Assembly (NCBI GenBank): GCA_017418445.1
Contig: JAFONM010000015.1
Span: forward strand, 1-41,831
Source of the DNA: Kiritimatiellia bacterium
GTDB taxonomy: Bacteria; Verrucomicrobiota; Kiritimatiellia; RFP12; UBA1067
DNA: 41,831 nt
Direction of reading: 5' to 3'
Shown: piece by piece, positions 2,168-19,040 of the stretch
Layout of the letters: each line of letters begins with the position of its first letter
Numbering within the stretch: position 1 is the stretch's first letter
Made by a program: the position numbers and the translations under genes
Notes under the pieces: model-generated
What the model saw: the letters and a program-made list of their open reading frames with translations, nothing else
Told to the model about the DNA's origin: nothing
Database searches by the model: none

Positions 2168-4279
2168 ATGACCGACTTCTCACAGCTGCTCAACCCAGAA
2201 CAGTGCGCTGCCGCGACAGCAGGTGACGGCCCGTTGCTCGTCCTTGCAGCGGCCGGGACCGGCAAGACGCGCACGCTCGTCCACCGCGTCGCGTACCTCG
2301 TCGAGCAGGGTGTTCCGGCGGAGCGGATACTTCTCCTCACGTTCACGAACCGCGCCGCGCGCGAAATGCGCGAAAGGGCGGCGAAGGTCGTCGGACCCGA
2401 AGTCGCATCGATATGGTCCGGGACGTTCCACTCGATCTGCGCGAGGCTTCTCCGCCGGTACGGATCGTTCATCGGATACAGGCCGGACTTCAGCATCATC
2501 GACGAGGACGACCAGAAGAAGCTGATGGGCGAGCTCATCAAGGCGTCCGTCGCGAATCCGAAGGACTTCGTCAAGAAGGAAGTCGTCCTCAAGATGATAA
2601 GCGAGGCCGCGAACGAGGGCCGGAGCGTCGAGTCCATCGCGCAGCGCTGGCAGACGAAGGCCGCGGGATTCGAGCCGGGGGACATCGCCGCCCTCGCGGA
2701 AAAGTACGCGAAGCGCAAGGGCGAGCTAGGCGTCATGGACTTCGACGACCTGCTGGTCAACGGACTGCGGCTCCTCAAGGAGGCGGACCGGATACGCGAG
2801 CTCCTGCAGGAGCACTTTCTGCACATCCTGGTCGACGAATACCAGGACACGAACGGACTCCAGGCCGAGTTCACGGACATCCTGGCCGCGAAGCACCGCA
2901 ACATCATGGCGGTCGGAGACGACTTCCAGTGCATCTACACGTGGCGCGGCGCGAAGATAGAGAACATCATGGAGTTTCCGAACCGCTGGCCCGGCTGCAG
3001 GATCGTCAAGCTCGAGCGGAACTACAGGTCTCTTTCCGGAATCCTCGACGTCGCGAACGTCGTCATGCGAGATGCGCCGAACCAGTTCGAGAAGCAGCTG
3101 AAGCCGACGCGCACCGGCGGCGTGGGACTCCGTCCCGAAATCGTGAAGGTCTTCGACGGAAGGGCGCAGGCGAACGAGATATACAGGCTAGTCACGGAGG
3201 CGAGGTCCAACGGATACAGGTGGCGCGACATCGCGGTCCTCTACAGGAGCCACTTCCAGTCCATCGAGATACAGATGCTCCTCGCGCGAATGCGCGTCCC
3301 GCACCACATCACGTCCGGTCTCGGCGTATTCGAGCGCGTCCACGTCAAGGACGTCCTGGCCTATCTGCGTCTTCTCGTCAAACCCACCGACGAACTCTCC
3401 TTCATCAGGTTCGCGACTCTCCTCCCGGGAGTAGGCGAGACGGGCGCCCGCAGGTACTGGGCAGGGCTCGGCGGCAGCTTCGCTCCGCAGAGCCCGGCCA
3501 GCAGGTCCGTCCTCAGGGGCATGCTCGCGAAGCGCGCGATCCCGCAGTACGACCTCGTCGTCAAGGCGTTCGAGCGCGCGGGCGAGCATCTCGAGGCGGA
3601 GGAGACCGGCGAACTCATTACGGACTTCACGGACTTCTTCTACGAGGACCGTCTCAGGGAGGAGCTGGAGGAGGTTGACGCCGAGGACAGGCTCAACGAC
3701 CTCAAGGAACTCGCGGCGCAGATCGCGGGTGCCGAGAACGGACTCGCGGGATTCCTCAACGACGTGGCGCTGATGACGAACCTCGACGCGCGCAGGAACG
3801 ATCCCGAAGCGGACGCGATGACGCTTTCGACGATCCACCAGGCAAAGGGCATGGAATGGCCCGTCGTCCTGATACCGTGGTGCAGCGATGGTCTGTTCCC
3901 GTCCGCCAAGTCCGCCGAGGACGGACGCATCGACGAGGAGCGTCGCCTGTTCTACGTCGCGACGACGCGCGCCAGGGATGTTCTTGCGTACTTCACGCCG
4001 ATCATGCGCCAGATGTCCGATGGCGGAATATACCCGATCGAGCAGTCCGAATTCATCAAGGAGATTCCGCCCGAACTCGCGGAGCGCCGCAACGTACAGG
4101 CGGCGTACGGAGAATACGGCGGCTACTCGCGTCCTGGCTATGGTGGCGGAAGCTACGGCGGCGGGTACGGCGGAGGTCGCGGATACGGCGGCGGCGGCTA
4201 TGGCGGCGGGTACGGCGGAGGTCGCGGATACGGCGGCGGGAGGCCGAAGCCCGTAATCAAGAAGACGTGGCGGCGCTGA
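2168..4279 (+). CDS. UvrD/PcrA-type superfamily 1 DNA helicase with Gly/Tyr-rich tail
   Basis: This is an ATP-dependent 3'-5' DNA helicase of the UvrD/PcrA/Rep group, expected to act in repair or replication restart. Visible motifs in order are the Q-motif region (NPEQCAA), Walker A AGTGKT (29-34), motif Ia (TFTNRAAREM), Walker B DEYQD (223-227), motif III (GDDFQCIYTWRGA), motif IV (ERNYRS), motif V (STIHQAKGMEWP) and motif VI (EERRLFYVATTRAR). The length of 703 residues is normal. The end is not: from about residue 648 the chain becomes a low-complexity run of Gly, Tyr and Arg (GGGYGGGRGYGGG units), closing with a basic tail KKTWRR. UvrD and PcrA usually carry a small Tudor-like domain there. 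It sits between nadE (3-base gap) and the kinase gene (1-base gap). Assignment to uvrD, pcrA or rep is not certain. Confidence 0.93.
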   Translation: MTDFSQLLNPEQCAAATAGDGPLLVLAAAGTGKTRTLVHRVAYLVEQGVPAERILLLTFTNRAAREMRERAAKVVGPEVASIWSGTFHSICARLLRRYGSFIGYRPDFSIIDEDDQKKLMGELIKASVANPKDFVKKEVVLKMISEAANEGRSVESIAQRWQTKAAGFEPGDIAALAEKYAKRKGELGVMDFDDLLVNGLRLLKEADRIRELLQEHFLHILVDEYQDTNGLQAEFTDILAAKHRNIMAVGDDFQCIYTWRGAKIENIMEFPNRWPGCRIVKLERNYRSLSGILDVANVVMRDAPNQFEKQLKPTRTGGVGLRPEIVKVFDGRAQANEIYRLVTEARSNGYRWRDIAVLYRSHFQSIEIQMLLARMRVPHHITSGLGVFERVHVKDVLAYLRLLVKPTDELSFIRFATLLPGVGETGARRYWAGLGGSFAPQSPASRSVLRGMLAKRAIPQYDLVVKAFERAGEHLEAEETGELITDFTDFFYEDRLREELEEVDAEDRLNDLKELAAQIAGAENGLAGFLNDVALMTNLDARRNDPEADAMTLSTIHQAKGMEWPVVLIPWCSDGLFPSAKSAEDGRIDEERRLFYVATTRARDVLAYFTPIMRQMSDGGIYPIEQSEFIKEIPPELAERRNVQAAYGEYGGYSRPGYGGGSYGGGYGGGRGYGGGGYGGGYGGGRGYGGGRPKPVIKKTWRR
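4157..4239 (+). repeat. Two identical 38-bp units, 45-bp period, in the helicase tail
   Basis: Positions 4157-4194 and 4202-4239 are identical over 38 bases, offset by exactly 45 bases (15 codons). Gain or loss of a unit would therefore keep the reading frame. The repeat encodes the GGGYGGGRGYGGG pattern. Exact DNA identity, not just protein similarity, suggests recent duplication by slippage or recombination. Confidence 0.9.
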
Positions 4280-4280
4280 G

Positions 4281-5708
4281 ATGGACCTCTCGATCGAGAA
4301 CCTGCTGGCGAAGCGCGAGGTCCGCAAGGCATACGGCGGCGGACGTCTTCCGCTTGGCACGGTCGTGGGGGACTGGAAGGTCGCCGCGTTCGTGGGTGCC
4401 GGAGGATCTGCCGAGGTCTATCGCGTCACCGGGACGAAGATGGACGCGGAGGCCGCCCTCAAGCTTCTCGTCAACGGCAAGCCCGAGTACCGCGAGCGTT
4501 TCATGCGCGAGATGGAGGTTATGGGTTCGCTTTCCGTTTCGTCGATTCCGCGCTTCCTCGGTTCGGGAACGTACGACGGCAGTCCCTGGTACGTGATGGA
4601 ATATCTGCAGCCCGTTCTTTTCCCAGTGGAGAATCCCAGGGACTTCGCGGTAGATCTCGCATTGGCCGTCGACGAACTGCATGACTCCGGCTACGTCCAT
4701 TGCGATCTCAAGCCGACCAACATACTCGCGAGAAAGAACGGGGAGCTGGTCCTCGCGGACCTTGGACTCGTCACGAAGATCGGCGAGAAGGGGCGGCACG
4801 GCGTCGGCACCAAGGGCTACGCGGCGCCCGAGCAGCTCATCGACGGCACGGCATCCGTCAGGAGCGACGTGTTCTCGATAGGGAAGATCCTCAAGTCCGC
4901 GGCCGGCGGACGCCTGCCGCACCGCCTCCGCACGGTCGTCCGGAAGGCTACGCACGAGGATCCTGAGGAACGCTACGCCGACGCCGTGGAGCTCGCGAAC
5001 GCCGTCGTCGGGAGCCGCTGGGGACGTATTCTCCCTTACGTCGCCGCCGCTTTAGTCCTTGCCGTCGCCGTTAGATTCGCTGTTTCCTGGCTCGCTCCCG
5101 AACGGCCCGACCCGAACGCCGACTGCGAGAAATTCGTCAAACTCGTCGAGGAGAGGATGGCCGAACAGTCGAAGCCCAGGACGTTCGCCGAGATCCTCGC
5201 GCTCGCGGAGTCCGGCGACTCGAAGGCGCAGGCGGACGTCGCGGAACGCTACTACTACGGCAGGGGAGTCGAGACGAACAAGGCGGAGGCCGTGCGCTGG
5301 TACGCCCATGCCGCCGAGGCGGGGCATCTCGGGGCGAAGGATTCGCTGGGGCTCTGCTACCTGTACGGCTACGGCTGCGGGAGGGATCCCGTGAAGGCGG
5401 CGAAGTTCTTCACCGAGGCCGCCGAGGAGGAGCATCCGAGCGCCATGAACAACCTCGCCTTCTGCTACAGGAACGGAATCGGCGTGGAGCGCGACGAGCA
5501 CAAGGCGTTCGTGTGGGCGAAGATGGCGGCGGACAAGGGACACGCGCCGTCCGAGACGATGGTGGCGGAATGCTATCTGGAGGGGCGCGGAGTGGAGAAG
5601 GACGTCGAGTCGGCGATGATCTGGCTCAGGCGTGCCGCGCGAAAGGGCAATGCAAGGGCGAAGATGCTGTTGAAGGCGCATGAATCGGATTCTGTTCGAG
5701 AAGAGTGA
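4281..5708 (+). CDS. Membrane Ser/Thr protein kinase with Sel1-like repeats
   Basis: This is a Hanks-type protein kinase tethered to the membrane. The compact kinase domain (about 31-245) shows the glycine loop GAGGSAEVY, the ATP-anchoring Lys61 (ALKLL), catalytic Asp142 in HCDLKPTN, the metal-binding Asp160 in ADLG, and AAPE. It departs from the usual HRD and DFG motifs: HCD lacks the Arg (a non-RD kinase) and DLG replaces DFG. The key catalytic Asp and Lys residues are kept, so activity is plausible. One hydrophobic helix (about 250-270) follows, then about four Sel1-like repeats (about 310-455; YYYGRGVETNKAEAV type) that probably bind a protein partner. Whether the repeats are periplasmic depends on topology. 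Its 3' end overlaps rsmE by 29 bases. The target is unknown. Confidence 0.92.
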   Translation: MDLSIENLLAKREVRKAYGGGRLPLGTVVGDWKVAAFVGAGGSAEVYRVTGTKMDAEAALKLLVNGKPEYRERFMREMEVMGSLSVSSIPRFLGSGTYDGSPWYVMEYLQPVLFPVENPRDFAVDLALAVDELHDSGYVHCDLKPTNILARKNGELVLADLGLVTKIGEKGRHGVGTKGYAAPEQLIDGTASVRSDVFSIGKILKSAAGGRLPHRLRTVVRKATHEDPEERYADAVELANAVVGSRWGRILPYVAAALVLAVAVRFAVSWLAPERPDPNADCEKFVKLVEERMAEQSKPRTFAEILALAESGDSKAQADVAERYYYGRGVETNKAEAVRWYAHAAEAGHLGAKDSLGLCYLYGYGCGRDPVKAAKFFTEAAEEEHPSAMNNLAFCYRNGIGVERDEHKAFVWAKMAADKGHAPSETMVAECYLEGRGVEKDVESAMIWLRRAARKGNARAKMLLKAHESDSVREE

Positions 5709-18171: not shown

Positions 18172-19040
18172 TGAATCTTGATTTCATATCAAGGCGAGCG
18201 GAGATCGTCAAGGGAATCCGCACGTTCTTCGACGGGCGCGGATTCCTGGAAGTCGAGACGCCGGTCAGGATCGCGGCTCCGGCGCCCGAATGCCACATCG
18301 ACTGTCCGCCAGTCGCCACCGGCGGATTCCTCCGCGCCTCGCCCGAGCTCCAGATGAAGAAGCTTCTTGCCGCCGGGCTCGGGAAGATATACCAGATCGG
18401 GCCGTGCTTCCGCGACGGCGAGAAGGGTTCGAGGCACAGTCCAGAGTTCACGATGATCGAGTGGTATCGACGCAACGCCGACTATCTCGACATTGCCCGC
18501 GACCTCGAATCCCTGCTTGCCGCTCTCGTCGCCAGCCACCGACCACCGATCATCCGCCTCTCGGTCCGGGACGCCTACCGGGACTATGCGGGGTGGGATC
18601 CGTGGACGGAATTCGACCAGGACAGGTTCGACTTCGACATGGCGACGACAATAGAGCCGAAGCTGAAGGAAATCGGCGGCGGAATCTTCCTGATGGACTA
18701 TCCCGTCCAGGCCGCCTCGCTGGCAAAGCTCCACACCCCGCCGGCCGCCGGCCGCCGGCCGCCAGCCACCTCCGCGCAGCGCTGGGAATTCTACTGGAAC
18801 GGAATGGAGCTCGCGAACTGCTTCACGGAGCTCTGCGACGAGGATGAGCAGCGCCGCCGTTTCGCCGTGTCGCGCGAGGAGCGCAAAGCGCTCGGCGAGG
18901 CGGATTATCCGCCCGACGAGGAGTTCTTCTCGTCGCTCGGCAGGATCGGTTCGGCCGCCGGAGTCGCTCTCGGAGTTGACCGGCTCGTGATGGTCCTGAC
19001 TGGTGCGGGCGACATATCGTCGGTCCGCGTCGGCGAATGA
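18171..19040 (+). CDS. epmA: EpmA/PoxA-type elongation factor P lysine ligase
   Basis: This is a class II lysyl-tRNA synthetase paralogue without the anticodon-binding domain. EpmA attaches (R)-beta-lysine to elongation factor P, which helps ribosomes through proline runs. Visible motifs are GFLEVETPV, the motif 2 region CFRDGEKGSRHSPEFTMIEWYR, a family-typical MELANCFTEL, and motif 3 GVALGVDRLVM. At 289 residues it is shorter than E. coli EpmA (325). The ATG at 18171 overlaps the methyltransferase stop by one base. A seven-base repeat (18741-18761) encodes a Pro/Ala/Arg loop before AQRWEFYW. Neither efp nor epmB is in this window. Some PVC-group organisms may use it with plain lysine, which cannot be judged here. 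Confidence 0.9.
   Translation: MNLDFISRRAEIVKGIRTFFDGRGFLEVETPVRIAAPAPECHIDCPPVATGGFLRASPELQMKKLLAAGLGKIYQIGPCFRDGEKGSRHSPEFTMIEWYRRNADYLDIARDLESLLAALVASHRPPIIRLSVRDAYRDYAGWDPWTEFDQDRFDFDMATTIEPKLKEIGGGIFLMDYPVQAASLAKLHTPPAAGRRPPATSAQRWEFYWNGMELANCFTELCDEDEQRRRFAVSREERKALGEADYPPDEEFFSSLGRIGSAAGVALGVDRLVMVLTGAGDISSVRVGE
18741..18761 (+). repeat. Heptanucleotide CCGGCCG x3 inside epmA
   Basis: Three perfect copies of CCGGCCG stand head to tail and continue partly on each side. The unit is not a multiple of three, so loss or gain of one copy would shift the epmA frame about two-thirds of the way through. It encodes PAAGRRP in a loop where the family is variable. Confidence 0.9.

Follow-up and report, generated by a model that had tools for sequence, protein, structure and literature searches.

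A Gly/Tyr/Arg-rich tail with a conserved Trp-Arg tip, a candidate recruitment arm, on a Tudor-less UvrD-type helicase of Kiritimatiellia

Contig JAFONM010000015.1 of a Kiritimatiellia bacterium (assembly GCA_017418445.1) was analysed over its full length. This stretch of 41,831 nucleotides, referred to below as the window, makes up an entire contig in a metagenome-assembled genome (MAG) of 1,386,563 bases that is 65% complete. Near its start lies an open reading frame (ORF), 2168-4279, which codes for 703 amino acids (aa) and, judged by its profile matches, is a UvrD/PcrA/Rep-type superfamily 1A (SF1A) helicase with UvrD N- and C-terminal domains. In this study, we describe the C-terminal tail of this helicase, a glycine-rich spacer that varies in length and ends in a conserved tip, and consider its role as a putative recruitment arm. 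The features of the locus are:

2168..4279, + strand: gene of the Tudor-less UvrD/PcrA/Rep-type SF1A helicase (ORF, 703 aa; Pfam and NCBIfam profiles)
2168..4087, + strand: helicase core, residues 1-640 (AlphaFold2 model; best Foldseek matches PcrA 1qhg/1pjr and UvrD 3lfu)
4112..4276, + strand: C-terminal arm predicted to be disordered, residues 649-703, comprising the Gly/Tyr/Arg-rich spacer and the tip (predicted local distance difference test (pLDDT), composition, relatives)
4145..4239, + strand: tandem repeat with a 45-bp period, coding for most of the spacer (Tandem Repeats Finder (TRF), exact-repeat search)
4259..4276, + strand: C-terminal tip K-K-T-W-R-R, residues 698-703 (tail comparison, codons, ratio of nonsynonymous to synonymous differences (pN/pS))

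Two Pfam families were found over their cut-offs in the ORF, PF00580 (E 2e-77) and PF13361 (E 4e-48), which represent the UvrD N- and C-terminal domains. The equivalog cut-offs of PcrA (TIGR01073; 454.9 of 911.2 bits), UvrD (TIGR01075; 390.9 of 1144.45 bits) and Rep (TIGR01074; 416.6 of 951.45 bits) were not reached. The closest solved structures were those of PcrA, UvrD and Rep, with PcrA as the best PDB match (phmmer, E 1.7e-107), and Foldseek comparison on the predicted model showed the core to be approximately 30-34% identical to PcrA and UvrD. The UvrD-type assignment of the original prediction was therefore borne out by Pfam, NCBIfam, phmmer and Foldseek. Named relatives of the helicase came from MAGs of Kiritimatiellae/Kiritimatiellia, other Verrucomicrobia or Lentisphaerae, many of them from the guts of ruminants and other animals.

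The C-terminus of the helicase reads ...EYGGYSRPGYGGGSYGGGYGGGRGYGGGGYGGGYGGGRGYGGGRPKPVIKKTWRR. Residues 649-703 comprise 27 Gly, 9 Tyr and 6 Arg among 55 residues (Gly 49%), confirming the low-complexity tail of about 55 residues that had been predicted. In the AlphaFold2 model, which was built from 56 aligned relatives, pLDDT was <50 across these residues (whole-protein mean 85.7), with no folded domain after residue 648. By composition and predicted disorder, this is the kind of Gly/Arg/aromatic-rich disordered region that characterises RGG/GYR low-complexity tails; the translated window tail has no RGG tripeptide, which some relatives' tails do have. In an unfiltered six-frame scan covering 833,306 of the MAG's bases, the helicase showed the highest C-terminal Gly density among 6,043 ORFs of at least 60 aa. 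The original prediction described an exact 45-bp DNA repeat. The period was recovered by TRF at 4145-4239 (2.1 copies, 94% matches, score 169), but "exact" was slightly too strong, the longest exact repeat in the tail DNA being 38 bp (4157-4194 and 4202-4239). An assembly artefact was ruled out as the source of the tail, since many other, independent MAGs of the genus show comparable ones. Elsewhere in the window, at 18738-18767, a 7-bp tandem repeat, CCGCCGG, occurs in 4.3 copies.

The helicase was matched in 57 of 58 genomes, and 32 of the 34 same-genus genomes carry it; the exceptions were G020, without a match, and G008, with a distant paralog only. Class-wide, 254 of 288 genomes matched at E 1e-100 or better. 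C-termini were taken from part of these 254, with most of them chosen from family f1 and the order, and 128 distinct ones were extracted; ends cut by contig ends, pieces short of residue 600 and identical duplicates did not enter the counts. Complete ends with an extension of at least 15 aa, within f1 and its unlabelled near relatives, formed a set of 77 tails (extension 16-81 aa, median 49). No tail-less close relative was found: all 47 complete, distinct C-termini labelled as genus g1 were extended, by 16-81 aa. Extensions of 33-75 residues were also present in genera g14 (11 sequences), g16 (2), g19 (2) and g23 (2). Tail-less ends, only 5-8 residues past the core, were seen in 14 sequences from nine other f1 genera and in families f3 (6), f5 (3) and f6 (5). 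The tails of family f4 are rich in Gly, Trp and Arg but lack the W-R tip, and the only f2 sequence in the set was cut by an internal stop. In one same-genus MAG (L033, G027:C64), a break around residues 402-424 leaves the helicase gene as two ORFs.

In the FastTree phylogeny of the helicase core, the tailed f1 genera and f4 formed one clade with a support of 97, and the tail state changed twice in all, a count that is provisional as the tree warns of long branches. A single gain of the tail is, provisionally, the simplest count, although it is not proven. From this distribution, the wider form of the enzyme is Tudor-less and without a tail, and the tail appears to have been added onto that form.

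Comparison of the 77 distinct tails revealed that 62 end in W-[RK]-[RHK] and 11 in R/D-(x)-W; the remaining four include L143, with a frameshift within the spacer, and L078, which is apparently truncated or frameshifted. The commonest endings were KTTWRR (20), RTTWRR (8) and KKTWRR (5). Codons were tabulated for the 62 tails picked for W-[RK]-[RHK], so that the W/R invariance among them is partly by construction; the Arg at -2 is encoded by six different codons and the stop by three. As the Arg codons vary synonymously, it is the protein that is conserved and not recently shared DNA. Over 15 close pairs, pN/pS was 0.07 for the tip, 0.14 for the core and 0.19 for the spacer, the last value being sensitive to how the repeats are aligned. 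The W-R-R/H tip was overlooked in the original prediction and, on these comparisons, points to a specific partner beside generic nucleic-acid binding or self-association. A DNA pattern for the terminal motif, which misses tips such as W-R-H, gave 32 matches in 26 of the 58 genomes. The 30 loci translated yielded no ORF of more than 100 aa with the motif at its end other than this helicase, and other genus proteins sharing the motif were accordingly rejected as candidates.

The spacer changes faster. Between close pairs (94-98% core DNA identity) tail lengths differed by, for example, 3, 9, 18, 27 or 45 bases, and all differences listed were multiples of three (L201 is cut by a contig end and L143 is a frameshifted row), which agrees with the in-frame length variation that had been proposed. 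The spacer composition over the 77 tails was Gly 32%, Tyr 13%, Arg 12% and Ser 11%, and the net charge of the tail averaged about +6 (range 0 to +10). Four gapless close pairs showed 19 synonymous and 7 nonsynonymous spacer differences over 194 codons. In one MAG (L143/L230), a frameshift inside the spacer places the expected tip, KTTWRR, in another frame; it may be a real mutation or an assembly error. Nine tails (L121, L123, L154, L155, L156, L157, L161, L164 and L165), belonging to genera g14, g19 or near them, carry an acidic run of at least four Asp ahead of the Gly/Tyr/Arg spacer.

The predicted lack of a Tudor domain was supported both by the NCBIfam pcrA profile, which aligned solely over positions 4-640 of 725 whereas the Tudor domain would come after 640, and by the model, which shows no folded domain after residue 648. 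The further suggestion that the tail replaces this domain did not hold, given the Tudor-less and tail-less helicases of f3, f5, f6 and nine f1 genera. Because a Tudor-less helicase exists without the tail in the order, absence of the Tudor domain came first or independently. Some order members (L056-L060, L062) have a Tudor-bearing paralog ending in ...PGDRVRHAVFG.G...; it was found in only 3 of the 58 genus genomes, 58% identical to L059. The Tudor domain of Bacillus PcrA binds [VIL]-D-x-x-T-G-E-[VIL]-[VILT] in RpoB and UvrB (PMC8318588). This Bacillus motif, applied without a Bacillus positive control, was missing from the region searched in all 30 UvrB loci (19 of the genus) and in 24 of 26 RpoB loci (14 of the 26 from the genus, including three partial ones); both RpoB loci that do contain it belong to family f2. 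With the paralog rare and the motif absent from UvrB and RpoB of the genus, the Tudor docking route is probably not available there.

The original prediction also pointed to RRM-type proteins of the same genome as possible carriers of such a tail. RNA recognition motif (RRM) proteins were present in 20 of the 21 genomes tested, and a related Gly/Arg/Tyr tail does occur on that of the window genome (L245), whose C-terminus is RRGGFGGGRGGYGDRGPRRETRW. From 30 loci, 29 ORFs were obtained (L263 gave none). Of these, 19 bear a tail that is rich in Gly and/or Arg and has Trp as its last residue, preceded by Arg (R-W) in 16 cases; nine others represent a tail-less paralog and the remaining one runs into a contig end. 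The RRM tails are shorter than the helicase tail and are also found in families whose helicase is tail-less. In the six-frame scan, the RRM protein was one of 42 ORFs to exceed the Gly threshold; the majority of these appear to be shadow frames. A further ORF of 656 residues, L274:12446-14416 (+), has a Gly-rich C-terminus without Tyr (GGGAGGGRGGAGAG...).

The tail was compared with known arms of nucleic-acid enzymes. Human DHX9, a superfamily 2 (SF2) DEAH-box RNA helicase, carries a C-terminal tail that is rich in Gly, Arg and Tyr and is associated with the binding of nucleic acids. Its likeness to the present protein is that of such a tail on a helicase; the two are not homologous, and the RGG-free tail of the window differs in this respect too. 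Escherichia coli Rep is closer: its C-terminal 33 residues, which UvrD does not conserve, are disordered and bind DnaB with an apparent dissociation constant <100 nM (PMC2807033). Both proteins would combine an SF1A core with a disordered C-terminal arm where a folded end domain would be, as predicted here by pLDDT <50 over residues 649-703. The Rep arm differs in its length of 33 residues, for which the excerpted text of PMC2807033 describes no Gly/Tyr/Arg richness, whereas here a variable spacer carries a W-R-R/H tip. PcrA and UvrD with a C-terminal Tudor domain (PMC8318588) have a similar core, and the domain itself has no counterpart here. E. coli SSB is likewise a DNA-handling protein with a Gly-rich disordered linker and a short conserved terminal peptide, but its tip is acidic (MDFDDDIPF; PMC12143593) and that of the helicase is basic-aromatic. 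In the genus, SSB (L339-L349) combines an acidic tip, for example SDPDDIPF, with a short linker that is poor in Gly.

Among other bacterial proteins, the cyanobacterial Rbp1 has a C-terminal Gly-rich region (PMC9333190) and is thus a nucleic-acid-binding protein with a comparable tail, although an RRM protein and not a helicase. The C-terminus of Mycobacterium tuberculosis Ku, a different protein from the helicase, is described as a multi-purpose arm that binds DNA and LigD (PMC9638933). Among open-licence PMC papers, taken by title and start of abstract, none was found on a Gly-rich or low-complexity tail on UvrD, and none on glycine-rich proteins in Kiritimatiellota or on RRM proteins of Bacteroides. 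Helicase arms that are disordered and bind partners are already known, as are bacterial RRM proteins with Gly-rich tails; what is new is the combination of such a tail, with this tip, on a UvrD-type helicase.

With moderate confidence, we interpret the tail of this Tudor-less UvrD/Rep-type helicase as a disordered arm for recruitment, consisting of a variable Gly/Tyr/Arg spacer and a conserved docking tip. The positively charged spacer would change length by in-frame gain and loss of repeats and project an aromatic-basic tip, [K/R]-T-T-W-R-[R/H] or, in some lineages, R-x-W. The tip would dock on one partner protein, much as the last 33 residues of Rep dock on DnaB, with the replisome helicase, SSB or RNA polymerase as candidates. 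A tethered docking peptide is suggested because the disordered spacer changes fast and the terminal motif slowly. The spacer probably adds weak multivalent contacts to single-stranded DNA (ssDNA), RNA or like tails, which would raise the local concentration; such nucleic-acid contact and condensation are plausible because of the positive charge and the Tyr/Arg content, by analogy with the SSB linker. The arm probably brings the helicase to its workplace and would be a lineage-specific version of a known kind of arm.

Several observations weigh against this interpretation. The arm is not required for the basic function of the helicase, since the enzyme is retained in order members that have no tail. 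FastTree splits GTDB family f1 into a tailed part, with f4, and a tail-less part, with f5, which may reflect transfer, hidden paralogy or a long-branch effect. Spacer Gly is <10% in 5 of the 77 tails, and spacer pN/pS was 0.55 in seven equal-length pairs forced gapless, probably because divergent pairs were out of register. The Tudor-binding motif is also missing in genomes that have the Tudor paralog (G037, G046, G008), and its absence therefore does not discriminate. No other protein with a K-T/K-T-W-R-R ending was found in the 58 genus genomes, a result which speaks neither for nor against a shared docking site.

A possible, though less likely, explanation is that the tail mainly binds nucleic acid or self-associates, with spacer Arg and Tyr contacting ssDNA, RNA or R-loops and driving condensates, and W-R-R as one more sticker. 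The spacer composition, the net positive charge, the similar tail on the RRM protein of the same genomes and the condensation of the E. coli SSB linker, driven by its Gly-rich character and aromatic/cationic residues (PMC12143593), all fit. By itself, however, this leaves unexplained why conservation is so much stronger in one short motif at the end than elsewhere in the tail, and some Gly-poor tails of 16-23 aa still keep W with Arg. We consider it rather unlikely that the spacer arose by neutral slippage of repeats at a C-terminus that tolerates it, with the tip alone, or nothing, under selection. The GC-rich repeats with their 38-bp exact repeat, the in-frame length change between close relatives and the frameshifted spacer of the L143/L230 MAG are in line with slippage, but the 19 synonymous against 7 nonsynonymous differences are unlike neutral sequence, and the Gly/Tyr/Arg/Ser bias is maintained across genera. 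A wider version of the recruitment idea, which appears quite unlikely, is that the helicase and the RRM protein share one address, a Gly/Arg/Tyr disordered tail with a C-terminal Trp-Arg tip. Read by one scaffold or co-condensing, the tails would gather an RNA-binding protein and a DNA helicase that removes R-loops in a single RNA-DNA body, and in this lineage such recruitment would stand in for the docking of a Tudor domain on RNA polymerase.

Directly downstream of the helicase, a Ser/Thr protein kinase with Sel1 repeats (4281-5708, + strand) begins one base past the stop codon. A relative of this kinase was matched at 9 of 80 related loci and was directly downstream in about five (L072, L073, L125, L148, L149). 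A conserved operon explaining the tail was rejected, as nadE was found at 0, the kinase at 9, rsmE at 3 and the iron-dependent dehydrogenase at 2 of the 80 loci. The close spacing would suit conservation of the tip codons as a ribosome-binding site of the downstream gene, yet the tip persists where the kinase is missing and its codons vary synonymously, which makes this explanation very improbable.

The C-termini of UvrD, PcrA and Rep recruit these helicases differently, to transcription, repair or the replication fork. A lineage with few Tudor-bearing paralogs, whose enzyme without the Tudor domain has gained a low-complexity arm with a conserved tip, would offer a natural test of whether a disordered spacer and a six-residue motif are enough to rebuild recruitment. 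A DNA-repair helicase would also join the bacterial RRM proteins as a bearer of Gly/Tyr/Arg tails.
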